From assembly GCA_937896205.1 (NCBI GenBank), contig CALBNA010000095.1, positions 1-12,158 on the forward strand: a stretch of 12,158 nt of DNA, read 5' to 3'. The translations under genes and the position numbers were made by a program. Shown here piece by piece: positions 1-12,158 of this stretch. Within the stretch, counting starts at the first letter, position 1, and each line of letters opens with the position of its first letter. Source of the DNA: an uncultured Campylobacter sp. GTDB lineage: Bacteria; Campylobacterota; Campylobacteria; Campylobacterales; Campylobacteraceae. The notes under the pieces were generated by a model, which worked only from the letters and a program-made list of their open reading frames with translations, had not been told where the DNA came from and searched no databases.

Positions 1-1151
1 GCCCTAAAATCATCATTGTGGATATCGACGAATTTAGAAAAATGAATAACTACTTCGGCACTACAGTTTGCGACAGAATTTTAGTACGAATGACGCAAAT
101 TTCGCAAAAATTCGCAGATGATAATAATATGACGGTTTACCGAGTGGGGCCGGATCAGTTTGCGTTTATCGAGGATGCGGCGTTTTTTATCGATAGGTAT
201 GAGGATTTAGCTACCGAGCTTTTGGATAATATCAAAGGTCTAGTCGTCGATATCACCGCACTTGACGGCGAACAAAGCGAGATAGAGATACACTGCACGG
301 TGGGCTTTGCGCTTGATGAGACCGATACGTTTAAAAAGGCGATGGTGGCGCTTGAGTTTGCTAAACAAAGCGGAAAGGACTATTTTTGCTACTTTAAAAA
401 CATCGACGATACGCCGCAATACGCCGAGCAAATCACTCGCTCAAATATGATACGAAACGCTATCATAAACGATAGGATCGTGCCGTTTTATCAACCGATA
501 TTTAATAAAGAAAAGCAAATCGTAAAGCACGAAACTCTAATCCGCATCCAAAACAGTAACGAAATCATCTCTCCAAGCGTCTTTTTGGAGGTTTCAAAGC
601 GCATCAAACGCTATACCGATATCGAAAAAATGTTGATCGAAAAAAGCTTTAAACTAATCGCCGATAGGCCCGACGCCGTAATCTCTGTAAATTTATCCGG
701 GCGCGATATGACCGACGGCGACGTAAGCGTGTTTATCATCGAAAAATTAAATAAATACAAAGTTGCCGGACGCGTGATATTTGAAATACTAGAGGATGAA
801 AACATTGAAAATATAGAGCGTATAGGAACATTTATCGAGCGCGTACGCAGGATGGGCGTAAAGATAGCGATAGACGACTTTGGCTCTGGCTATAGCAACT
901 TCTCCTACATCCTAAAACTAAAGCCCGACTACATAAAAATCGACGGCTCCATCATAAAAAATATCGATACGAGCGAGGACTCTCGCGCTATAGCAGGCGC
1001 CATCATCGCCTTTGCTAAAAAGCTTGATATCACGGTAATAGCCGAATTTGTCCGCTCAAAAGAGGTGTTTGATACATGCGTAGAGCTTGGCGTGGACGAG
1101 TTTCAGGGCTTTTATCTAGGAGAGCCTAGAGATAGCCTTTACGAGGATTAA
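1..1151 (+). CDS. GGDEF/EAL-domain protein, probable c-di-GMP phosphodiesterase (5' truncated)
   Basis: Cyclic-di-GMP turnover protein entering the window already in frame. The frame is open from base 3 (PKIIIVDIDEF), so the GTG at 18 is not the true start and the N-terminus is missing. Counting from the codon at 18, residues 1-130 are the rest of a GGDEF domain. It keeps the DIDEFRKMN strand but has GPDQF (44-48) where GGDEF is expected, so cyclase activity is unlikely. Residues ~145-375 are an EAL domain in which the expected catalytic residues are present: E172 (HETLIR), N225 (SVNLS), E256 (FEILE), D286-D287 (DDFGSGYS), K307 (YIKIDG), E343 (AEF) and Q363 (FQGFYLG). I infer an active phosphodiesterase, with the degenerate GGDEF perhaps serving as a GTP sensor. 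Sensory or membrane modules may lie upstream. No convincing hairpin terminator follows the stop codon. Confidence 0.93.
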   Translation, partial: PKIIIVDIDEFRKMNNYFGTTVCDRILVRMTQISQKFADDNNMTVYRVGPDQFAFIEDAAFFIDRYEDLATELLDNIKGLVVDITALDGEQSEIEIHCTVGFALDETDTFKKAMVALEFAKQSGKDYFCYFKNIDDTPQYAEQITRSNMIRNAIINDRIVPFYQPIFNKEKQIVKHETLIRIQNSNEIISPSVFLEVSKRIKRYTDIEKMLIEKSFKLIADRPDAVISVNLSGRDMTDGDVSVFIIEKLNKYKVAGRVIFEILEDENIENIERIGTFIERVRRMGVKIAIDDFGSGYSNFSYILKLKPDYIKIDGSIIKNIDTSEDSRAIAGAIIAFAKKLDITVIAEFVRSKEVFDTCVELGVDEFQGFYLGEPRDSLYED

Positions 1152-1750
1152 AATTTAACTGCGACGCTATTTTGTCGGAGGCTTTAATCTTGTGCCGTCT
1201 TGTAAGTTAGCCTTGATTTTTTGATGAATTATCGCCGATTTTTACATCATTTTAACTTTTAATAAAAACAATAATGTCTCTTGCGGAAATTTTAAAGCGG
1301 ACCGGTTTTTGTAAATAAACTACCAAGTAAAGCTTTATAAAATTAAATCTCGTTGAGATAATTGCCGAATTTATGCACTTGACATGCTTTAAGGTCTGCT
1401 TCATTAACTTTTGCAATTATTTATGGATTAATGCCTTCTTTTGTTTTTGCGACAACGGCGTCAAATTTGACTTTAATTTTTATTGGGTTTTGGCGATTCC
1501 TGTTTGATTACGAAAAAGCATCATATCGCGCAAGGATAAGATTTGTCCATGCACCCCAAAAAGCTAAGTATATTTGGTTTTTGTGGTTTGTGCTGGGAGC
1601 TTTGTGTGGTTTAAATTTTATCAAGATTGATCGGCCGAGTATTATGATTAAAAACTATCAAATTTCAAGATATTTTTTGCAGAAATAAAAAAGCTAAATT
1701 TAGCGACCTGTATCGTAAAGACGCAGGTTAATTCGACTTACAAATTTAGC
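1152..1750. other. Gene-poor AT-rich stretch with a doubtful 85-codon frame
   Basis: About 600 bases between the EAL gene and the hisG stop codon. The only sizeable frame runs from the ATG at 1431 to 1688 (85 codons). It has two hydrophobic stretches (residues ~13-25 and ~47-64, the latter rich in W, F and L), no recognisable Shine-Dalgarno, and no family I know. The overlapping frame that starts near 1381 is also open for about 40 codons and rich in Cys, Phe and Trp, which argues that base composition, not selection, keeps these frames open. A small stem-loop (ATCTC-GTT-GAGAT) lies around 1347-1359. I see no tRNA or insertion-sequence ends. It could hold a decayed gene or a small RNA, but nothing visible proves either. 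Confidence 0.4.
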
Positions 1751-1752
1751 TT
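1687..1752 (-). terminator. Probable hisG terminator (long inverted repeat)
   Basis: AAGCTAAATTT at 1691-1701 and its exact reverse complement at 1742-1752 form an 11-bp perfect inverted repeat. The 40-nt loop contains a second small stem (ACCTG 1706-1710 with CAGGT 1724-1728). On the minus strand the structure overlaps the hisG stop codon and is followed by six Ts (complement of 1687-1692), as expected for an intrinsic terminator of the minus-strand operon. The stem is AT-rich and the loop long, so efficiency is uncertain. The left arm also contains a 12-nt palindrome at 1693-1704. Confidence 0.45.
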
Positions 1753-2359
1753 AAATTTGCGCTTTGATTTTTTCGTAAAGCGATAAAATTTCGTCTTTTT
1801 TGATGATAAAGCTATTTTTATTTGCGATGAGGTGAGCGGAGCTGTGCATGATGGTCTCGGCGACTCTGAGCCCGTTTTGTTTCATTGTAGTGCCAGTTTC
1901 AACGACGTCCACGATTGCGTCGGCTAGCCCGACCAGCGGTGCTAACTCGATCGAGCCGTATAGTTTGATGATCTTTAGCGCGGTGGCTTTTGCGGCGAAG
2001 TAGTTGCGCGATATGTGCGGCATTTTAGTGGCGATTTTTAGCTCGGGAGCGTTTAAATTTAGCTCCTCGCCCTCTTTGATACCCACGCAGACGCGGCATT
2101 TGCCGATCTTTAGATCAAGTAGGCGCACGACGTCTGGACGGTGCTCTTCAAGTACGTCAAGGCCCACCACGCCGATATCTGCAGCGCCGTTTACGACGTA
2201 GGTCGGGATGTCTTGGTTGCGAACCATTAGAAATTTAAAATCGCCCTCGCTCATCAGTAGTTTTCTATCCTCAAACTCAAACGAGCTTTGAAAAATTTTC
2301 CTAAAAATCGCGAGCGTTTCGTCGGCGATGCGGCCTTTTGGCAAAGCAACCGTTAGCAT
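1751..2359 (-). CDS. hisG: ATP phosphoribosyltransferase, short form (catalytic subunit)
   Basis: First enzyme of histidine biosynthesis, joining ATP and PRPP to give N1-(5-phosphoribosyl)-ATP in the cytosol. The 202 residues show ALPKGR (5-10), ADIGVVG (60-66) and the PRPP-binding signature around VETGTTMKQNGL (153-164). The protein stops at about residue 202 and lacks the C-terminal ACT-like regulatory domain of the ~290-residue long form. It therefore belongs to the HisG_S class, which in studied cases needs the HisRS-like partner HisZ for full activity and feedback control. No hisZ is in the window. The ATG lies inside the end of coaX (7-base overlap), with AAGGA six bases upstream, so it is probably translated from the coaX message. 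C. jejuni has the long form, so this is a lineage difference worth noting. Confidence 0.96.
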   Translation of the reverse strand: MLTVALPKGRIADETLAIFRKIFQSSFEFEDRKLLMSEGDFKFLMVRNQDIPTYVVNGAADIGVVGLDVLEEHRPDVVRLLDLKIGKCRVCVGIKEGEELNLNAPELKIATKMPHISRNYFAAKATALKIIKLYGSIELAPLVGLADAIVDVVETGTTMKQNGLRVAETIMHSSAHLIANKNSFIIKKDEILSLYEKIKAQI

Positions 2360-2982
2360 AAAATGTCCTTTTTTTGTTCGATTAGTTTTTGCATCCCGCG
2401 AAATACAAGCATGCGGTCGTAGATACTCGTGGTAAAAAAGCGCGATAAAAACTCGCCGTCGCCGCCCGTGAAGTAGATTTTCGAGCCGTTTGCCATATTT
2501 TCGATTAGAAGCAGGATTGGCTTTATGACTCCGTAGCTTACCGCGTCGGTTGTTTTTTGCGGGAGCGCGTCGAGGTCGATCTGCGAATTTAGCGAGATTT
2601 TTAGCCTCGGCGAGATTGCCTCGCAGGCTTTTAGGATATGTGAAATACCCGGCACTATCGCGCCGCCAAGGTGCATAGAGTCCATCATAACGTCTATGGT
2701 TACGGCGCTACCTGCATCGACAATAAGACCGTTTTTTACGGCATAACAGCTAGCCACGCGGTCGATACCAAGGCCTTTATAGATAGTATCCAGTTCAAAA
2801 TAGGGCTCCAAATTTACGAATCTAGGCGAATTTTGCAACCTTTTGGTTACTCCGTCGTTTACGCTGATAAAATAAATCTTCTCATCGCTTCTAAAATATT
2901 TAAAATTTTCAATCCTGATTTTGGTGATTTTACCGTTTTCAAAAAAGGTGGCGTTAGTATTGCCTACGTCACATAGAGTCAT
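2353..2982 (-). CDS. coaX: Type III pantothenate kinase
   Basis: Phosphorylates pantothenate to 4'-phosphopantothenate, the first step of CoA synthesis, in the cytosol. Its 209 residues fit the short CoaX proteins of Campylobacterota. ASKHA-fold motifs are in order: phosphate loop DVGNTN (5-10), GLGIDR (70-75) with the likely catalytic aspartate D74, the DAGSAVTID segment (89-97) that supplies monovalent-cation and substrate contacts, GGAIVPG (106-112), and TGGDG (172-176). Family proteins start close to the DxGNTN motif, which supports the ATG at 2982 despite a weak Shine-Dalgarno. The start overlaps the preceding gene by 14 bases and the end overlaps hisG by 7, consistent with one transcript. 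The same gene was formerly often annotated as a Baf-family transcriptional regulator in Campylobacter. I see no missing key residue. Confidence 0.95.
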   Translation of the reverse strand: MTLCDVGNTNATFFENGKITKIRIENFKYFRSDEKIYFISVNDGVTKRLQNSPRFVNLEPYFELDTIYKGLGIDRVASCYAVKNGLIVDAGSAVTIDVMMDSMHLGGAIVPGISHILKACEAISPRLKISLNSQIDLDALPQKTTDAVSYGVIKPILLLIENMANGSKIYFTGGDGEFLSRFFTTSIYDRMLVFRGMQKLIEQKKDILC

Positions 2983-3301
2983 GTTTGTAGCCGTTTTCTT
3001 TCATTAAATTTGAAGTTTTTGAGCAGATATCAGAGCTATAAAAAATAGCTTTTTTCTTAAAATTTACTCCTGTTTGCTCGGCGATTTTGCTGGCTATTTC
3101 GTTGATTGTTTCAAACTCTTTGCTTAAAAATCTAGCCTTTGCGCTGCGAAAAAACAAAAGCGTATAAAAGCCCTTCATATCAACGCCCGTGAGTGCGGCA
3201 AGGGTCTTTTTTTTAGTAAATTTATCAAGCTCCGTCCAGCTTAAATTTTTTAAGATAATCTTTTTGGCTTCCAGAACTTGATAAATTTCTTGTTTCGTCA
3301 T
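2969..3301 (-). CDS. Conserved hypothetical protein, 110 residues
   Basis: I do not recognise a family. The protein is soluble-looking and lysine-rich, with no signal peptide or membrane segment, and is probably mostly helical. One central hydrophobic patch (GFYTLLFFRSAKARFLSKEF, 44-63) stands out. Its start codon forms an ATGA overlap with the stop of the upstream lipoprotein gene, and its end overlaps coaX by 14 bases, so it is translated as part of this operon and the frame is very likely real. As I recall, C. jejuni has a hypothetical gene at the same position (Cj0395c) between coaX and a lipoprotein gene. The context (coaX, YfgM/BamB-like pair) does not assign a function. The coding strand contains a run of eight As (complement of 3207-3214, in FTKKKT). 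Confidence 0.8.
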   Translation of the reverse strand: MTKQEIYQVLEAKKIILKNLSWTELDKFTKKKTLAALTGVDMKGFYTLLFFRSAKARFLSKEFETINEIASKIAEQTGVNFKKKAIFYSSDICSKTSNLMKENGYKHDSM

Positions 3302-4308
3302 TTAAGCTCTAAACTGTAATCGTCGTAGTAAAATTCTTTTACACTGGCGAAAATTTGACTCTCGACCTCGTCTGAAAGCTCGTAAATTTTGGCATTGTCG
3401 AGCGCTAGATCTGTCTTTATGAGATATCCTGTTTTTTCCATTATATAAAGCGAGCCGTTATAGACGGTGGCGCTTGAAAAGATGGCGAATTTAAAATATG
3501 CGTCTTTGATTTGTTTCAAATTTAGGTCGCTAAGCACGATTTTGCCGTCTTTTAGCAAGATATATATATATTCGCCGTTTATGACGATGTCTTTGATCTC
3601 GCCGTTATAATAAACCGTTTTTTCGGGATTTATCGAGACGATACGTTTGCCAGTGGCAGCTATCATCGTGTCGTTTACGACGTTGAGCGAGATGATGTTG
3701 TTAAAAAACTGCTCGCTACTCACGACCACGTCACGTAAAATTCGGCCTTGGTTTTTATCCGCGATCATGATCTTTCCGTCAAGCGTAGGAAATATAACGA
3801 GCGAGCTCATAAATAACGGCGCAGCGACGCGAGAGTCCTGGGCGTAGACGTTTGAGCTTTCAAACTCTAGCAAAGTATCGTTTGTTGCAATGTCGATGAG
3901 ATATATGACATTGCCCGCGCTTAAAAGGGCTAGTTTATTATCTTCTAGAGCGGCTGAAACGATTGCTTCATTGAAGCTTCTTTGAAATAAAATTTCGTTT
4001 GAGCTGTTTGCAACGATCAAATTTCCGTCCAAATCAGAGCTTATAATTTTATCGTCGCCGTAATTTAACAAAGTAGCACCTTTTGTCAGCTTTGTTTCAG
4101 GCGCTAGTAAACCGTTTTTAGTTATCGCCATACCGTTTTTTAGCACCGCTCCGTTTAGGCTTGCCGTCGCGATGCTGGCAGGCAGTCTGTTTTCTGAAAT
4201 TTTTTCATTTTGCACGTCGGTCGGCTCGAAATACTGCCTTTTTGTACTGCATCCGCCGAGTACCGCGACGCAGAGTGCAGCCGCTAAAATAGCTTGAAAT
4301 TTTCTCAT
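3298..4308 (-). CDS. BamB-like PQQ-type beta-propeller lipoprotein
   Basis: Predicted envelope lipoprotein of 336 residues. Residues 1-19 form a lipoprotein signal peptide (MRKF, then a hydrophobic core) ending in the lipobox LGGC with lipidated Cys20. The rest is a chain of short beta-repeats typical of PQQ-type propellers, such as GDDKIISSDLDGNLIVAN (~84-101), LDGKIMIADKNQGRIL (~176-191), GEYIYILLKDGKIVLSD (~246-262) and NGSLYIMEKTGYLIKTD (~285-301). BamB, a lipoprotein of the outer-membrane beta-barrel assembly machine, has this architecture, and in E. coli it is encoded directly after yfgM, as here. The ATG is supported by AAGGA eight bases upstream and overlaps the upstream stop (ATGA). 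Orthology with BamB is inferred from architecture and neighbourhood; identity may be low, and it could be another propeller scaffold. Confidence 0.82.
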   Translation of the reverse strand: MRKFQAILAAALCVAVLGGCSTKRQYFEPTDVQNEKISENRLPASIATASLNGAVLKNGMAITKNGLLAPETKLTKGATLLNYGDDKIISSDLDGNLIVANSSNEILFQRSFNEAIVSAALEDNKLALLSAGNVIYLIDIATNDTLLEFESSNVYAQDSRVAAPLFMSSLVIFPTLDGKIMIADKNQGRILRDVVVSSEQFFNNIISLNVVNDTMIAATGKRIVSINPEKTVYYNGEIKDIVINGEYIYILLKDGKIVLSDLNLKQIKDAYFKFAIFSSATVYNGSLYIMEKTGYLIKTDLALDNAKIYELSDEVESQIFASVKEFYYDDYSLELK

Positions 4309-4871
4309 TTTGCATTTCCTTGATAGTGTTCTAAATTTTTGACGATGGATTGAAGCTGAGAATTTAAAGGAACCTTTTTAAATTCGTTTTTTGCTTCGTC
4401 GATTTTATTTTCTTTCATTAGCTCATACCCTCTAACAACGGCCTTATATGAAGTCAAAATTTGACCGCTAGGCTCGTTTATCTGGGATTTTACGATATCT
4501 TTTAAAAGCGGGTCGATCTGTTCGTTGGCAAGCGACTTTAGCGCGTTTGTGTCGTTGTTGTCAACCGCTCTTTTAAACTCGTAAAGCGCGTAAAGCGAGG
4601 CGTCTTTTTGTCTTAGTTCGGCTTTTGCTTGCTCGTCTTTTGGATTAAGTATCAGTTTTGCATATGCGGCGTTTGCGGCTTTAAACTCTTTTTCTTTCAA
4701 AGCGCCGTTTATATAGTATCCCGCCGCGCCGATCACGCCTAAGGCGAACGCACCGATGATAATTTTTTTATATTTTTTAAAAAATCTTTCGCTTTTGATT
4801 ATGTTTTCTAAAAATTGTTCTTGAGTATTTAACTCTTCCTTTATAGAATCAATATCATCTTTGATAGCCAA
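4305..4871 (-). CDS. YfgM-like inner-membrane protein with periplasmic TPR-like domain
   Basis: A 188-residue protein with a short charged cytosolic N-terminus (1-35), one membrane helix (~36-55, KIIIGAFALGVIGAAGYY) and a helical periplasmic region to the C-terminus. That region has TPR-like helix pairs, including AANAAYAKLILNPKDEQAKA (~65-84) and GYELMKENKIDEAKNEFKKV (~148-167). This is the layout of YfgM/TPR_21 proteins. E. coli YfgM associates with the SecYEG translocon and PpiD and is encoded just upstream of bamB. The start is a TTG at 4871, supported by AAGGA six bases upstream and by the absence of any other methionine before the membrane helix. It is the first gene of the minus-strand operon, with an extended -10 promoter about 40 bases upstream. 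The function here is inferred. Confidence 0.82.
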   Translation of the reverse strand: MAIKDDIDSIKEELNTQEQFLENIIKSERFFKKYKKIIIGAFALGVIGAAGYYINGALKEKEFKAANAAYAKLILNPKDEQAKAELRQKDASLYALYEFKRAVDNNDTNALKSLANEQIDPLLKDIVKSQINEPSGQILTSYKAVVRGYELMKENKIDEAKNEFKKVPLNSQLQSIVKNLEHYQGNAK

Positions 4872-4877
4872 GTTTTT

Positions 4878-4882
4878 TCCTT
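4878..4882 (-). promoter_or_regulatory. Ribosome binding site fixing a TTG start
   Basis: On the minus strand AAGGA is followed by six bases and then TTG GCT ATC. The strong Shine-Dalgarno at good spacing identifies the TTG at 4871-4869 as the initiation codon of the YfgM-like gene. No ATG or GTG offers an alternative before the membrane helix. Confidence 0.75.
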
Positions 4883-4907
4883 AAATTTTAGTTATTGAAA
4901 GTTCGTA

Positions 4908-4916
4908 ATTGTAGCA
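4908..4916 (-). promoter_or_regulatory. Extended -10 promoter of the yfgM-like/hisG operon
   Basis: The minus strand reads TGCTACAAT: a TGn extension plus a near-consensus -10 (TACAAT). There is no recognisable -35, as is usual for Campylobacter sigma-70 promoters. Transcription would start near 4901, leaving a leader of about 30 bases before the TTG start. Confidence 0.6.
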
Positions 4917-4954
4917 TAATAAATATAAAACAGCATAAAAATCAAGGCAAATTG

Positions 4955-4963
4955 TGTTATAAT
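4955..4963 (+). promoter_or_regulatory. Extended -10 promoter of the gatC-aroE operon
   Basis: TGTTATAAT is a perfect TATAAT -10 (4958-4963) with a TGn extension and no clear -35. A start near 4970 gives a leader of about 25 bases before the gatC ATG at 4995, which has GAGG four bases upstream. It is the only strong promoter I see for the nine-gene plus-strand cluster. It lies back to back with the minus-strand promoter. Confidence 0.65.
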
Positions 4964-4994
4964 GCGGAAAATTTTAAAAATTTGACGAGGTTTT

Positions 4995-5282
4995 ATGCAG
5001 ATAGACGATACTTTATTAACCAAACTTGAAAAGCTTAGTTCGCTCAAAGTCGAGAGCGACAAGCGAAGGGAAATCGAAGGTCAACTCAGTGAAATTTTGA
5101 GCTTTGCGGGTATACTAGACGAGCTTGATCTAAGCGCTTCTCAAGCGGTAGTAAGCTCTAGAGAAGGCGGAACTCCGTTAAGAGAAGACGTAAGCGTGAG
5201 CTCTGACGTGATAGAAACTATACTTAAAAACGCTCCAATGAGTAGCAAACACTTCTTTGTCGTGCCGAAAATTATAGAATAA
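4995..5282 (+). CDS. gatC: Asp-tRNA(Asn)/Glu-tRNA(Gln) amidotransferase subunit C
   Basis: Small subunit of the GatCAB transamidase, which converts mischarged Asp-tRNA(Asn) or Glu-tRNA(Gln) to the amide form in bacteria lacking AsnRS and/or GlnRS. The 95 residues have the family's usual size and features: an N-terminal helix (DDTLLTKLEKLSSLKVESDK, ~4-23), the region EGQLSEILSFAGILDELDL (~27-45), and the conserved PLREDV near residues 60-65 followed by NAPMSSKHFFVVPKIIE at the C-terminus, where GatC usually reads NAP...FVVPKVIE. gatA and gatB are not in the window, so GatC is separated from its partners, as is common in Campylobacter. It is first in the operon, and pilT starts 11 bases after its stop with AAGGA (5281-5285) directly at the junction. 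Confidence 0.95.
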   Translation: MQIDDTLLTKLEKLSSLKVESDKRREIEGQLSEILSFAGILDELDLSASQAVVSSREGGTPLREDVSVSSDVIETILKNAPMSSKHFFVVPKIIE

Positions 5283-5293
5283 GGAAATTTTAT

Positions 5294-6409
5294 ATGGAGC
5301 AAATAAGGCAAGAAACTCAAAATGATAGTTTAGAGCCCAAGAAAATAGACGTAAGCTTGGAGACGTTATTAAAAACGGTCGTACACAATAAGGCCAGTGA
5401 CTTGCACCTTGTCGCAAGAAGCGAGCCGCAGATCAGAATAGACGGAACTTTGAGGCCGCTTGAGCTCGGCGTGCTAAAGGGGCACGATATACAAGATATC
5501 TGCTATGCGCTCATAACCGACGTGCAAAAAAGCGATCTTGAGGAAAATAGGGAGCTTGACTTCGCAATAGAGCTTCCCGGCGTCGGACGTTTTAGGGGCA
5601 ACTATTATTATACTATGAACGGCGATTTGGCTGCCGCATTTCGTATTATTCCGACGGATATTCCGTCTCTTGACGACCTTAGAGCGCCTGCTATTTTTAA
5701 AGAAGTGGTAAAGCGCGAAAAAGGACTAATTTTGGTCACCGGACCTACAGGTAGCGGTAAATCGACGACGCTTGCCGCGATGCTAAACGAGATAAATTTA
5801 AACGAAAGAAAGCATATTATTACCGTAGAAGATCCTGTCGAGTTCGTACATACGAATAAAAAAGGTCTTTTTTCTCATAGAAACGTCGGCGTGGATACCA
5901 AGTCTTATGCCAAGGCGCTCAAAAGCGCGCTTCGTGAAGACCCTGATATTATTTTGGTGGGCGAGCTTCGAGACAGAGAAACGATATCTACGGCTATTAC
6001 GGCAGCAGAGACTGGCCACTTAGTATTTGGCACGCTGCACACAAACTCGGCTATTCAGACTATCAACCGTATCATAGATAGCTTTGAGGGCGGCGAGCAG
6101 CTTCAGGTACGAAATATGCTCTCGGTTTCGTTAACGGCGGTTATATCGCAAAGCTTACTTCCAAAAATAGGCAGCGGACGACTTGCTATACACGAAATAC
6201 TAATTAACAATAACGCTATCGCAAACCTTATTCGAGAAAACAAGGTGCATCAAATTTACTCCCAAATGCAGCTAAACCAACAAGTAACCGGCATGATGAC
6301 GCAAACGCAGTCCTTAATGAAAGCTATTAGAGCAAATCAAATCACGAAAGAAATGGCGATGAGATATTCAACCAATCAGCAAGAACTCGCGCCATTGTTA
6401 GGTATGTAA
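5294..6409 (+). CDS. pilT: Twitching-motility ATPase PilT
   Basis: Hexameric cytosolic secretion-superfamily ATPase that powers type IV pilus retraction. The 371 residues match full-length PilT. An N-terminal PAS-like domain carries the typical ASDLHL start (34-39). The Walker A motif GPTGSGKST is at 150-158 with K156. The aspartate box ITVEDPVEF is at 176-184, Walker B DIILVGELRD at 218-227, and the histidine box GHLVFGTLHTNSA at 241-253. The C-terminal AIANLIRE (308-315) corresponds to the AIRNLIRE motif that marks PilT as against PilB or GspE ATPases. The start is set by AAGGA eight bases upstream. Its stop overlaps the cvpA ATG (TAATG). No other pilus gene is in the window. As I recall, C. 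jejuni lacks this gene between gatC and the cvpA-like gene. Active-site residues look intact. Confidence 0.95.
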   Translation: MEQIRQETQNDSLEPKKIDVSLETLLKTVVHNKASDLHLVARSEPQIRIDGTLRPLELGVLKGHDIQDICYALITDVQKSDLEENRELDFAIELPGVGRFRGNYYYTMNGDLAAAFRIIPTDIPSLDDLRAPAIFKEVVKREKGLILVTGPTGSGKSTTLAAMLNEINLNERKHIITVEDPVEFVHTNKKGLFSHRNVGVDTKSYAKALKSALREDPDIILVGELRDRETISTAITAAETGHLVFGTLHTNSAIQTINRIIDSFEGGEQLQVRNMLSVSLTAVISQSLLPKIGSGRLAIHEILINNNAIANLIRENKVHQIYSQMQLNQQVTGMMTQTQSLMKAIRANQITKEMAMRYSTNQQELAPLLGM

Positions 6410-7002
6410 TGGATTTTGTTACTCTATTTGACGTAGTCGTCGTTTCATTGGTTTTGATACTGGGTATAAAAGGCGTGATAAGCGGACTGATAAAGGAAAT
6501 ATTTGGCCTCATCGGTCTAATCGGTGGTATCGTAGTGGCTAGTAGATTCGGTATTAGAGTCGGTCATCTAATAAGCGATAATGTTTATAAAATAGAGGGT
6601 GATTCTATTCTGTTTTTTGCTGGATTTTTAACGACGCTTATCGTATTCTGGATACTTTGCTTGGGTATCGGCGCATTTTTATCGAGATTAGTAGGGTTAA
6701 GCGGACTTGGATTTTTGGATAAAATGGGCGGATTTATCATCGGAAGCGCCAAAATTTTCCTAGTTTTTGCGGTTTTGATAGTGACCATTTCAAACATTCA
6801 AGTCTTAAACAACAAAATAGAGCCGTATTTTAGGGGAAGTAAACTATATCCGATTTTGCTGGATACCGGCAAATGGATAATGAATGTTAACGTAAAAGGC
6901 ATATCAGGCGGCGTGGGAAATATCGAAACGCCGTTTGACGCCTCTATGCAGGAGCAAAGACCAAATTTAGAGATAAATTCGACGATTAAGGAGTACAAAT
7001 AA
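6409..7002 (+). CDS. cvpA: CvpA family inner-membrane protein
   Basis: A 197-residue CvpA/colicin V production-like membrane protein. Four hydrophobic segments are visible at ~4-20, 28-46, 66-90 and 105-128. The family pattern FDVV...[15 protein letters not shown] is at the N-terminus, and the conserved [20 protein letters not shown] (101-120) precedes the last helix. The hydrophilic C-terminus (~135-197) is probably outside the membrane core. E. coli CvpA is needed for colicin V export and affects envelope stress resistance, but its molecular role is unresolved and no bacteriocin gene is near, so the name should be read as a family label. The gene overlaps pilT by one base (TAATG) and fur by one base. 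C. jejuni has a homologue directly upstream of fur. Confidence 0.9.
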
Positions 7003-7472
7003 TGATTGAGAATTTAGAATACGACGCGCTTCTTGAGAAATTTAAAAAAATTTTGAGAGACAACGGGCTAAAATACACGCAACAGCGAGAAGTTCTACTA
7101 AAGACGCTCTACAACAACGACGAGCACTTCACTCCGGAGAGACTTTATTTTTTCATTAAAGAGACCTATCCTGACTTAAACGTCGGCATCGCGACCGTTT
7201 ATAGGACGCTAAATTTACTCGAAGAAGCCGAGATGGTAACCTCCATCAGCTTTGGTTCGCAAGGTAAAAAATTTGAGCTTGCAACCAAACCTCACCACGA
7301 TCATATGATATGCCGCAGATGCGGAACTATCATCGAATTTGAAGACGCAACCATAGAAAAAAGACAAGCAAATATCGCAAAAGAGCATGGCTTTAAGCTA
7401 ACCGGACACATGATGCAGCTTTACGGAGTGTGCAAAGAGTGCAATGCCAAAGAGGCAAAGGGCGGCAAGTGA
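7002..7472 (+). CDS. fur: Ferric uptake regulator Fur
   Basis: Metal-dependent dimeric DNA-binding repressor of iron acquisition. Its 156 residues show a winged-helix DNA-binding domain with the recognition helix in [14 protein letters not shown] (63-76). The Fur signature HHDHMIC (98-104) supplies metal ligands and begins the C104-C107 pair, and a second pair C144-C147 (CKEC) completes a structural zinc site. The metal site with HHDH fits Fur rather than PerR, but family-level separation (Fur, Zur, PerR) rests here mainly on synteny with C. jejuni fur. The start codon overlaps the cvpA stop (TAATG), with AAGGAG eight bases upstream. The end overlaps the lysS start (GTGA). No Fur box or separate promoter is visible upstream, so transcription probably comes from the gatC promoter or weak internal ones. 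Confidence 0.94.
7457..7471 (+). promoter_or_regulatory. Ribosome binding site and GTG start of lysS
   Basis: AAAGGG (7457-7462) lies six bases before the GTG at 7469-7471, which overlaps the fur stop as GTGA. This start gives [10 protein letters not shown], the usual beginning of Campylobacter LysS. The longer in-frame opening at 7430 would add 13 residues derived from out-of-frame fur sequence and is rejected. Confidence 0.75.
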
Positions 7473-8974
7473 TATTTGAAAATCAATTAGAAATACAAAG
7501 ATTAGAGACGGCAAACGAACTAAGAAGCGTGGGCGTAAATCCCTATCCGCATTTTTTACGCCGCGATATGGATATAACTAAATTTAGGCTCAAATTTAAA
7601 CATATAATAGACACCGAAGAAAAGAGCGCTGAAGGTCAGCTAGTAAGCCTTGCCGGGCGCGTGAAGCTCATCAGGGATGCGGGCAAGGCGATATTTGCCA
7701 ACATCGAAGACGAGGACGGCAATATTCAAATTTACTTTAGCAATAAGACGCTTGATCCAGACTGGTTTAAGGTCGTAAAGAAAAATATCGAAGTAGGCGA
7801 CATCATATATGTGCGCGGATATGCCTTCGTCACGCGAACGGGCGAATTTTCTATGCACGTTAGCGAACTAACTTTGGCGTCAAAGGCTATTTCGCCGCTT
7901 CCGGAGAAATTCCACGGGCTAACGGACATCGAGACTAGATATCGCCAGAGATACCTCGATATGATAATGAACCCCGAGGTTAGGGCTGATTTTAAGCGCC
8001 GCTCGGTTATCGTTAGTACGATTCGCAGATTTTTCGAGGATAAGGGCTTTTTAGAGGTCGAGACTCCGATGATGCACCCGATCCCTGGCGGAGCGAACGC
8101 TAAGCCTTTCGTCACGTTTCACAACGCGCTTGGCGTGGAGAGATTTTTACGCATCGCACCCGAGCTTTATCTAAAGCGTCTCATCGTGGGCGGTTTTGAT
8201 GCGGTTTACGAGATGAATAGAAATTTTCGCAACGAGGGTATGGACCTAACGCACAACCCCGAATTTACAAGCATCGAGTTTTACTGGGCGTGGCATACTT
8301 ATCACGATTTGATGGGGCTAACCGAGGAGCTATTTAACGTGCTTCTTGATAAACTTGATATGCCTAAAATAATCGAATTTGACGGTATGCAGATTGATTT
8401 TAGCAAGCCGTTTAAACGCATAAGCTACAAAAAAGCGCTCGTAGAAATCGGCGGTCTAGACGAAGCGATCATCGGCGATAAGGATAAAATTTTAGCCAAG
8501 CTCAAAGCGGACGGCTTTGAGGCAAACGCTAAGCTTGATTTGGGGCATTTGCAGGCCGAACTTTTCGATAATTACGTAGAGAGCAAGCTAATCGATCCGA
8601 CCTTTATCATCGACTATCCAATTTCTATTAGCCCGCTTTCTCGCAGAAGCGACGCAAATCCCGATATAGCCGAGAGATTTGAGCTATTTATCGCAGGACG
8701 CGAGCTAGCTAACGGCTTTAACGAGCTAAACGACCCGATTGATCAATACGGCCGCTTCGCTTCGCAAATCGAAGCTAAAAATGCAGGAGACGATGAAGCT
8801 CACGAGATGGACGAGGACTACGTGAGGGCTCTTGGCTACGCGATGCCTCCGACTGCCGGGCAGGGTATCGGCATAGATAGGCTCGTGATGCTACTGACCA
8901 ATAAAAAGTCCATCCGCGACGTGGTGCTTTTCCCAGCGATGAGACCGCAAAAAAACGAAACCAAGGAGAATTAA
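7469..8974 (+). CDS. lysS: Lysyl-tRNA synthetase, class II
   Basis: Charges tRNA(Lys) with lysine in the cytosol. From the GTG at 7469 the protein has 501 residues, the usual Campylobacter LysS length. An OB-fold anticodon-binding domain occupies ~55-140 ([20 protein letters not shown]). The class II catalytic core follows. Motif 1 lies around [20 protein letters not shown] (194-213). Motif 2 is in [20 protein letters not shown] (247-266), with the ATP-contacting arginine of FRNEG. Motif 3 is GQGIGIDR (464-471). It overlaps fur by four bases and its TAA overlaps the glyA ATG by one, so it should be translated in step with both neighbours. The lysS-glyA pairing is conserved in Campylobacter and Helicobacter. 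Confidence 0.97.
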
Positions 8975-10218
8975 TGAGTTTGCAAAGTTATGATAAAGAA
9001 ATTTTTGATTTAGTAAATTTAGAACTAAAACGCCAATGCGACCACCTCGAGATGATCGCGAGCGAAAATTTTACCTATCCCGAAGTAATGGAAGTAATGG
9101 GCTCCATTCTAACTAATAAATACGCGGAAGGCTATCCAGGCAAACGCTACTACGGCGGCTGCGAATACGTCGACCAGATCGAACAGCTAGCGATTGATCG
9201 CTGCAAAGAGCTTTTCGGTTGCGAATTTGCAAACGTGCAGCCAAACTCAGGCTCGCAGGCAAATCAGGGCGTTTACGGCGCGCTTTTAAATCCGGGCGAT
9301 AAAATTTTAGGCATGGATCTAAGTCACGGCGGACACCTCACTCACGGTGCAAAAGTAAGCAGCTCGGGTAAAATTTATCAGAGCTTTTTCTACGGCGTGG
9401 AGCTTGACGGACGCATAAACTACGACAAAGTGATGGAAATTGCGCAAATCGTAAAACCTAAGATGATCGTGTGCGGCGCAAGCGCATACACTCGCGAGAT
9501 CGAATTTAAGAAATTCCGCGAGATCGCCGATGCCGTCGGCGCTATACTATTTGCAGACGTAGCGCACATCGCCGGTCTAGTCGTAGCCGGCGAACATCAG
9601 AGTCCATTTCCGCACTGCGACGTAGTGAGCTCGACTACTCACAAGACGCTTCGCGGACCTCGCGGCGGTATCATCATGACAAATAACGAAGAGTACGCCA
9701 AAAAGATAAATTCGTCCATCTTCCCCGGCATCCAGGGCGGACCGCTAGTCCACGTTATCGCGGCAAAGGCGGTAGGCTTTAAACATAACCTTTCGCCTGA
9801 ATGGAAAATTTACGCTAAACAAGTTAAAGCAAATATCAAAAAGCTAGCCGAAATTTTAGTAAAACGCGGCTTTGATCTAGTTAGCGGCGGCACGGATAAT
9901 CACCTGGTTTTGATGAGCTTTTTAAACCGCGAATTTAGCGGTAAAGATGCTGACATCGCTCTTGGCAATGCGGGCATAACGGTAAATAAAAATACGGTTC
10001 CGGGCGAAACTAGAAGCCCGTTTGTTACAAGCGGTATCCGCATCGGAAGTCCAGCGCTTACAGCTCGCGGCATGAAAGAAGCGGAATTTGAGATCATAGC
10101 AAATAAAATCGCCGATGTGCTAAGCGATATCAATAATGCAGCGCTTCAAGAGAAAGTAAAAGCCGAATTAAAAGAGCTTGCGAGCAAATTTATCATCTAC
10201 GATAGGGCGACTTATTAA
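8974..10218 (+). CDS. glyA: Serine hydroxymethyltransferase
   Basis: PLP enzyme interconverting serine plus tetrahydrofolate with glycine plus 5,10-methylene-THF, the main one-carbon source in the cytosol. The 414 residues match the bacterial family length. Visible motifs are [13 protein letters not shown] (26-38), [20 protein letters not shown] (48-67), QPNSGSQAN (89-97), FADVAHIAG (193-201) with PLP-contacting D195 and H198, and [14 protein letters not shown] (219-232) with the PLP-binding lysine K224. AAGGAG (8963-8968) lies five bases before the ATG, which shares its A with the lysS TAA. The stop overlaps the next gene's ATG in the same TAATG manner. I see nothing unusual in the protein. 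Confidence 0.98.
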
Positions 10219-10760
10219 TGCAGAGCATAGACACCGCGCTAATCAAAATGAACACGAGCCACTACTGGATCAAACGCGATAATATCGTAAGCAAGATCGA
10301 GTATAAAGGGCGGATGTTTTTTAATAAATTTGAGCTCATAAACGAGCCTCTAAGCTATCACGTGATAAAAGATCACGACGAGGGTAAGATCACGGTCGCA
10401 CACTCGCTGATACTGCCGGGCGACAAGGTAGAAAATATCGTCTTTGACTACAACGGTAGGATGCCTGAGCGCTTTTGGCACCGAGCTCAGCTTTTGCTCC
10501 GCGAGGAGGGATTTATAAATTTTACCGCCTACGAGAGCAAGACGCCGGGGCACTTGCACCTTTATATACACAAAGGGCACACGACGCTAAATGAGGGCTA
10601 TCAGATAGCGAATAAACTATCTATGCTACTTAGTTCGCGTTTGGTTAAAGAGTGGAGAGTGTTTCCGACGATGGAGTTGCCGAAAGAATTTAATATCTTG
10701 ACGTTGCCGTACAAAGTTTATCAAAAAGAGCGCGGCGCAAGCTGGTCAAAACATATGTAA
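10218..10760 (+). CDS. DUF1882 protein of Campylobacterota
   Basis: A 180-residue cytosolic-looking protein of the DUF1882 family, found next to glyA in Campylobacter (Cj0403) and Helicobacter (HP0184). Its function is unknown to me. There is no signal peptide or membrane helix. The middle of the protein runs strand ([10 protein letters not shown], 71-80), helix ([16 protein letters not shown], 83-98), then strands with a small-residue/His motif ([17 protein letters not shown], 105-121), helix ([15 protein letters not shown], 128-142), and ends in [15 protein letters not shown] and TLPYKVY. This order resembles the core of archaeo-eukaryotic-type primase/polymerase domains (acidic strand, then an SGxxxxHL-like motif), but the acidic motif is only DYN here, so catalysis is doubtful. 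The fold comparison is inference. The ATG overlaps the glyA stop by one base, and the next gene starts 9 bases after its stop. Confidence 0.88.
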
Positions 10761-10769
10761 GGAGTAAAA

Positions 10770-11693
10770 ATGGAGTATAACGAGCTAAGAGACATCATGC
10801 TTGATAATAACGAGGATAAAAAGAGCAAAAGCGTTAAGAGGATACTCATCCTCGTCGCAGTTTTCGTCATCATCTTTTTAGCTGTTCTCATCGTGATGAA
10901 ATTTTTAAATTCCTCCGAAACTAACGATCAGATTGCACAAACTGATTCTAGGCTGGTTTTGCCGCCTGAGCCAGATAATACGCGAAGTATCCCTCAGCAA
11001 GTGGGCGTGCCTGCTACGTCGCCTAACGAGCCTGCGCCGCAAGTAGCACAAGCTAACGTCCCGCCAGTCGCTCCGCCGCCATCCGAGCCTCAGGCGCAGC
11101 AGCCAAATCCCGCCTTTGAGCAGGTGCCTATCGTGCCTGAAAACAAAGGCCAAGATAGCTTTGAGGATATGGTAAAAGCGCTTAAGGAAAAAGAGGATAA
11201 AAGGCAGCAAGATGCAGGCGCGACAGCTCCTACGCCGACCGAGTCTTCTACTATACAAGGTGCTTTAAAGCAAAATGACGCTCCAAGCGCTCAGCCAGGC
11301 GAATCAAAAGCCGAGCCTAAGCAGCACGTAAACGTAGTAAAACAAAAAGAGCCTAAGCAAGAAAAAGCTGCAAAACAGCCTAAAAACGATGTAGCTAAAG
11401 AAAAACAAGCAAAACAAAAGCCGGCCAAACAAGCTCCTGTAGCTAGCGGCGGGGATGCTCACGGCGGTAGTTACGTGCAAGTTTTCGCCGTTAAGCACTT
11501 TAATGAAAAAGCGCCTGAGCTTGGCAAACTAAAAGCCGCAGGATACACCTATAAGCTATACAGGACGAATGTAAACGGCAATGAAATCATCAAGGTTCTA
11601 GTCGGCCCTTATAGCGGCGAGCAGTTAAAAAGCGAGCTTGCTAAAATCAAGCAAAGCGCGGCTCCAAACGCCTTTATCGTAAATATAAAATGA
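10770..11693 (+). CDS. SPOR-domain inner-membrane protein
   Basis: A bitopic envelope protein of 307 residues that should bind septal peptidoglycan. It has a short cytosolic N-terminus (1-23), one membrane helix (~24-46, ILILVAVFVIIFLAVLIVMK), a long disordered periplasmic linker (~50-230) and a C-terminal SPOR domain (~233-307, starting SYVQVFAVKHF and including IIKVLVGPYSGEQ). SPOR domains bind denuded glycan strands at division sites. The linker changes character: Pro/Gln/Ala-rich to ~125, a predicted coiled segment FEDMVKALKEKEDKRQQ (131-147), then Lys/Gln/Glu-rich (~180-222). AAGGAG (10759-10764) lies five bases before the ATG. The ATG of aroE overlaps the stop (ATGA). As I recall, C. 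jejuni has a SPOR gene at the same place (Cj0404). A FtsN-like role is possible but not shown. Confidence 0.92.
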   Translation: MEYNELRDIMLDNNEDKKSKSVKRILILVAVFVIIFLAVLIVMKFLNSSETNDQIAQTDSRLVLPPEPDNTRSIPQQVGVPATSPNEPAPQVAQANVPPVAPPPSEPQAQQPNPAFEQVPIVPENKGQDSFEDMVKALKEKEDKRQQDAGATAPTPTESSTIQGALKQNDAPSAQPGESKAEPKQHVNVVKQKEPKQEKAAKQPKNDVAKEKQAKQKPAKQAPVASGGDAHGGSYVQVFAVKHFNEKAPELGKLKAAGYTYKLYRTNVNGNEIIKVLVGPYSGEQLKSELAKIKQSAAPNAFIVNIK

Positions 11694-12110
11694 TGGTTTT
11701 TGCCGTTTTTGGCAACCCTATCTCTCACTCCGTTTCGCCGAGGCTGCACAACCTAGCTCTCGGCGAGCTCGGTCTATCTCGCGAAGCCCTCTATACTCGC
11801 TACGAGCTGGCGGACGGCTCGCAACTCATATCCAAATTTAAAGAACTAAAACTAAGCGGCGCAAACGTCACAGTACCTCACAAAGAAGCCGCGCTCGCGC
11901 AGTGCGATATCGAAGACGAAACGGCTACCAAAATCGGCTCCGTAAATACCCTTGTAGCTCGCGGCGATAAAATTTACGGCTACAATACCGATGCGCCCGG
12001 GTTTTTGCGGGCAGTAGAGAGTTTTGGACATATAAATTCGGCTCTCATTTTGGGCGCTGGCGGAACGGCTAGAGCAGTAGCCTACGCTTTAAAAAGCCGC
12101 GGTGTGCGAG
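11690..12110 (+). CDS. aroE: Shikimate 5-dehydrogenase, 3' truncated by contig end
   Basis: NADPH-dependent reduction of 3-dehydroshikimate to shikimate in aromatic amino-acid synthesis. Only about 139 of the usual ~260 codons are present. Counting from the second of two tandem ATGs (11693), the shikimate-binding NPISHSVSPRLHN is at 8-20, catalytic K64 is in NVTVPHKEA (58-66), GSVNTLV is at 82-88, and the second catalytic residue D100 is in GYNTDAPGF (96-104). The glycine-rich NADP loop LGAGGTARAVA (120-130) follows. The first ATG (11690) gives an ATGA overlap with the SPOR gene, so either may be used. Genuine sequence stops at 12110. The frame stays open through the appended adapter, which adds the false tail VSYTHLRAHETVLDL. 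The truncation is an assembly artefact, not a biological pseudogene. Confidence 0.93.
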
Positions 12111-12158
12111 CTGTCTCTTATACACATCTCCGAGCCCACGAGACCGTACTAGATCTCG
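12111..12158 (+). other. Illumina Nextera adapter, i7 index and P7 start (contamination)
   Basis: Bases 12111-12144 match the 34-base reverse complement of the Nextera read-2 transposase adapter, beginning CTGTCTCTTATACACATCT and ending CCGAGCCCACGAGAC. The next eight bases (12145-12152, CGTACTAG) equal the Nextera i7 index N702, and ATCTCG (12153-12158) is the start of the P7 sequence. This is read-through into the adapter of a short library fragment kept at the contig end. It is not genomic and should be trimmed. Confidence 0.98.

Follow-up and report, generated by a model that had tools for sequence, protein, structure and literature searches.

That public sequence data contain contaminants is well known (for example, PMC7218494 and PMC10898089). 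The form that concerns us here is Illumina Nextera read-through in assemblies, and the end of the DNA under study, a stretch of 12,158 nucleotides that we analysed as a whole (the window), resembles it in its letters, in the order of its parts, in its place at a contig end and in its outward direction. There is no difference in kind, and the only particulars of the window are its index (N702) and the truncated gene (aroE). The analysis confirmed that the window ends in an ordinary sequencing artefact of this already known and widespread kind. Parts of the adapter can be found in published methods: the 34-mer at positions 12111 to 12144 appears among the read-cleaning parameters given in a passage of PMC6460022, and the N702-labelled primers in Table 4 of PMC5570097 contain CGTACTAG.

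The initial annotation had described the final 48 bases of the window as transposase adapter, N702 index and the start of P7, and this description turned out to be exact to the letter. All 48 letters of positions 12111 to 12158 match a Nextera i7 read-through (19 nt of mosaic end, 15 nt of CCGAGCCCACGAGAC, 8 nt of CGTACTAG and the 6 nt ATCTCG), and the cassette points outward and closes on base 12158 of 12158, the window being taken as the whole contig. The parts listed in Table 1 follow the layout of the Nextera i7 adapter: mosaic end, primer part, index and P7. Under the base composition of the window, the log10 probability of this 48-mer is -29.4 per site, before allowing for approximately 24,000 sites and two strands, and the 19-nt mosaic end, at up to three mismatches, was absent from all 200 shuffles of the window. 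The left end of the window is clean, since a 12-mer scan with eight Nextera, P5 and P7 oligonucleotides gave matches solely from position 12111 on. Evidence contradicting the adapter identity did not come up, and we regard it as practically certain that the final 48 bases stem from the i7 (N702) side of an Illumina Nextera adapter that was not trimmed off.

Table 1. Coordinates of the truncated aroE gene, its false protein end and the adapter parts in the window
Feature	Position	Strand	Basis
Native 5' portion of aroE, encoding residues 1-140 of shikimate dehydrogenase, and one base of codon 141	11690..12110	+	PF08501; 412/421 bases identical to G001
False protein end in the chimeric AroE frame: AVSYTHLRAHETVLDL (residues 141-156)	12110..12157	+	Open frame and G001 alignment
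Mosaic end, Nextera/Tn5, reverse complement (CTGTCTCTTATACACATCT)	12111..12129	+	Exact, 19 nt; single site in the window at ≤3 mismatches
Read-2 primer sequence within the Nextera i7 adapter (CCGAGCCCACGAGAC)	12130..12144	+	Exact, 15 nt
i7 index CGTACTAG = N702	12145..12152	+	Exact, 8 nt
Start of the P7 flow-cell sequence, first 6 nt (ATCTCG...)	12153..12158	+	Exact

The position of the junction follows from comparison with relatives. The nearest relative genome examined, G001, consists of one contig of 2.1 Mb and aligns with positions 1 to 12110 of the window without a break, at 95.7% identity (12143 alignment columns, 10 gap openings). Within aroE, 412 of the 421 bases up to 12110 are identical to G001, against 10 of the 48 bases beyond. 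The initial annotation had suggested comparing aroE with a closed Campylobacter genome; in the comparison with the single-contig G001, the match breaks off at 12110. The junction proposed in the initial annotation, after position 12110, was borne out, with homology to relatives gone from the first adapter base. The alignment with a second relative, G006, likewise reaches exactly 12110. When the chimeric protein was used as query, 30 of 31 relatives gave a match, the exception being G013, and all 30 matches stop at residue 136-142 of 156. A search of 100 genomes from the same genus, family and order gave no copy of the 34-nt adapter at up to two mismatches. These data bear on the possibility that the window ends in a genuine aroE end peculiar to the strain, where chromosomal DNA has diverged or been rearranged and looks like an adapter by chance. 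The aroE frame does stay open up to the end of the window, as such a reading would have it, but a chance match has a log10 probability of about -29 per site, and both G001 and G006 lose homology at the very first adapter base. We give this reading a vanishingly small probability, and chance or diverged DNA was rejected on the shuffles (0/200), the break in the G001 alignment and the log10 value of -29.4.

The remainder of the window (1-12110) contains ordinary genes that are collinear with G001, and the window begins within a gene. A Pfam scan of ten proteins gave HisG, Pan_kinase, T2SSE, Colicin_V (CvpA-like), FUR, a class II tRNA synthetase, SHMT, DUF1882, SPOR and Shikimate_dh_N. Going by length and gene order, the class II tRNA synthetase is presumably the lysyl enzyme. 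Some close relatives of the AroE protein are named Campylobacter shikimate dehydrogenase, which supports a Campylobacter origin of the window.

As had been claimed before, the aroE frame runs through the adapter and yields a chimeric AroE: from position 11690 the frame is open to the end of the window, with no stop codon. Residues 1-140 are ordinary for a Campylobacter AroE in their bases and in their domain, Shikimate_dh_N (PF08501), which lies at residues 6-88 with an E value of 2.4e-21. The difference begins thereafter, where the window has 16 adapter-coded residues instead of residues 141-271; the G001 protein is 271 amino acids long and goes on as RVCVLNRSEERL where the window has RAVSYTHLRAHETVLDL. 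Wholly native residues end with R140; A141 is of mixed origin, as codon 141 (12110-12112) contains a single native base, and V142 is entirely adapter. The tail given in the initial annotation, SYTHLRAHETVLDL, is indeed the adapter-coded end but is therefore two residues short at its start, the full tail being the 16 residues AVSYTHLRAHETVLDL. As the N702 adapter lacks a stop codon in this frame, the frame is not closed, and a gene caller would therefore give a 156-amino-acid chimera and not the 271-amino-acid enzyme.

The same cassette is present in other public contigs. Two collections, a viral set and a genome set, were scanned for exact copies of the cassette, allowing any 8-nt index; each gave at least 120 stretches, and together they yielded at least 254 matches in at least 240 loci. 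Among the matches listed, 252 of 254 face outward and finish no more than 100 nt from the end of the locus, the exceptions being L097 and L229; in those loci whose ranges were read, the locus end is the contig end. Sixteen indices, N702 and 15 others, were found among the listed matches, in contigs of unrelated organisms, and N702 was the commonest index of the viral set (30/125) and the fourth in the genome set (15/129). Several public N702 contigs run on as TATGCCGTCTTCTGCTTG, followed by poly-A. A further scan with the 34-mer alone gave at least 46 matches in at least 46 new loci; among those listed, 44 begin within 60 nt of the end, and the other two are L306 (183 nt) and L280 (internal).

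A genuine insertion of a Tn5/IS50-type element or a laboratory transposon in aroE, with its mosaic end starting at 12111, would account for the first 19 adapter bases, which are the Tn5 mosaic end. Yet the mosaic end does not lead into transposon DNA; the primer site of Nextera comes next, then an i7 index and the start of P7, and the identical cassette with varied indices ends contigs of unrelated organisms, and the adapter is unmatched in the 100 related genomes. This insertion is extremely improbable in our view and was rejected, given that bases 12130-12158 are primer, index and P7 start. The listed matches were also sorted by hand into 19 assembly groups, which cover 159 of the 254 matches and one of which pools three IMG identifiers. 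Seventeen of the 19 groups contain a single index, as expected of a library barcode, and two indices are found in 3300008517 (12 and 3 matches) and 3300028837 (8 and 5). Since other assemblies show several adapter ends with one index each, further contigs of the window's own assembly are likely to bear such ends.

Four loci deserve separate mention. In L097, from a 121,820-base IMG/VR contig, positions 6346-6393 of the locus contain the adapter (index TAGGCATG), followed by P7 and poly-A, approximately 7 kb from the contig end and with sequence on both sides; here, two pieces of DNA seem to have been joined via the adapter. In L280, the 34-nt adapter lies at 4953-4986, mid-way in a 9673-base IMG/VR contig, and a Nextera index and P7 do not directly follow; perhaps two ends were joined. 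L229 and L306 contain the adapter (starting 198 nt and 183 nt from the end, respectively), P7 and poly-A, and then other sequence up to the end, which is perhaps read-end noise. The cassette also occurs in the isolate-genome contigs L234 and L250 (Myceligenerans indicum I2 and Streptomyces megasporus NRRL B-16372), and is therefore not confined to metagenome bins.

The adapter would have entered the contig in several steps. A tagmentation event would have taken place after base 12110 of the source molecule, and with an insert shorter than the read, read 1 would have continued past the insert and entered the i7 adapter. If these reads were left untrimmed, the assembler may have taken the adapter branch, probably at thin coverage, and assembly would have halted where adapter k-mers are common to many reads. 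In nine SRR3933xxx groups, where NODE_ names are frequent, the adapter stub was 48-51 nt long at all 62 ends, the lower edge of this range being fixed by the search pattern, and the stub of the window, at 48 nt, falls inside this range. In 3300008517, all 15 ends have stubs of 75-77 nt, and in 3300010389 all nine have stubs of 41-48 nt. Such narrow stub lengths fit a halt at shared adapter k-mers. Against it speak the wide spread in 3300009124 (49-70 nt) and 3300028837 (57-81 nt and one internal site), the two groups with two indices, and the rarity of shared terminal 55-mers, which among the sampled ends were found in only 5 of the 19 groups, none of them an SRR group. Shared 49-mers were found in 16 of the 19, a trivial result wherever stubs measure at least 49 nt. 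Because this test of shared terminal k-mers was mixed, the assembler step is the weaker part of the explanation and is something we infer.

Read outward, the 34 constant nucleotides of the i7 adapter are free of stop codons in all three frames and so give the recurrent false tails LSLIHISEPTR, CLLYTSPSPRD and VSYTHLRAHET; some indices introduce a stop, as N702 does in the first frame. At 115 of the 254 listed matches, the longest frame that has a start codon covers at least 60 codons before it reaches the adapter, and these 115 are divided among LSLIHISEP (46), CLLYTSPSP (34) and VSYTHLRAH (35), a split that does not differ from an even one by chi-square (p = 0.31). A protein search with AroE residues 113-156 gave 249 proteins at E ≤10, the best 120 of which were listed. 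The tail peptide for which the initial annotation had proposed a database search recurred, as YTHLRAHE, on 94 of the best 120 of these 249 proteins, 92 of the 94 with E >0.01; the query included the tail, so that the tail matches arise by construction, and the informative part is that the bodies of these proteins have unrelated Pfam domains or none. The tail continues into VCRLLL of P7 in 74 of the 94, and the other 26 proteins are AroE relatives. A three-frame regular expression for the adapter tail matched none of the 121 listed AroE relatives (26 + 95), and the chimeric AroE of the window was not among the 215 database proteins listed; the protein set is clustered at 90%, so that a chimeric AroE could sit inside a cluster, for example that of P0002 with 178 members. 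The assertion that such fake ends enter protein databases is thus borne out by other proteins, and among the listed AroE relatives no such end was found.

In the third frame, the 13 indices that were translated gave 13 distinct continuations after the constant tail. N702 yields VLD, which was present in all 94 tails found, again by construction, as the query contained it. Because the residues after the constant tail vary with the library index, we think it somewhat probable that a deposited protein is by itself enough to identify the library barcode and that screening for these peptides could reveal chimeric proteins and the mixing of libraries. Text searches of open-licence PMC papers found none with the adapter peptides or on adapter-derived spurious proteins. 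Public contigs and protein sets commonly contain untrimmed adapter, as the recurrence of these tails on unrelated proteins shows. The relevance of the finding is one of data hygiene only: the contig is to be trimmed at 12110, aroE is to be flagged as 3'-partial, and the false tail is to be excluded from protein families.
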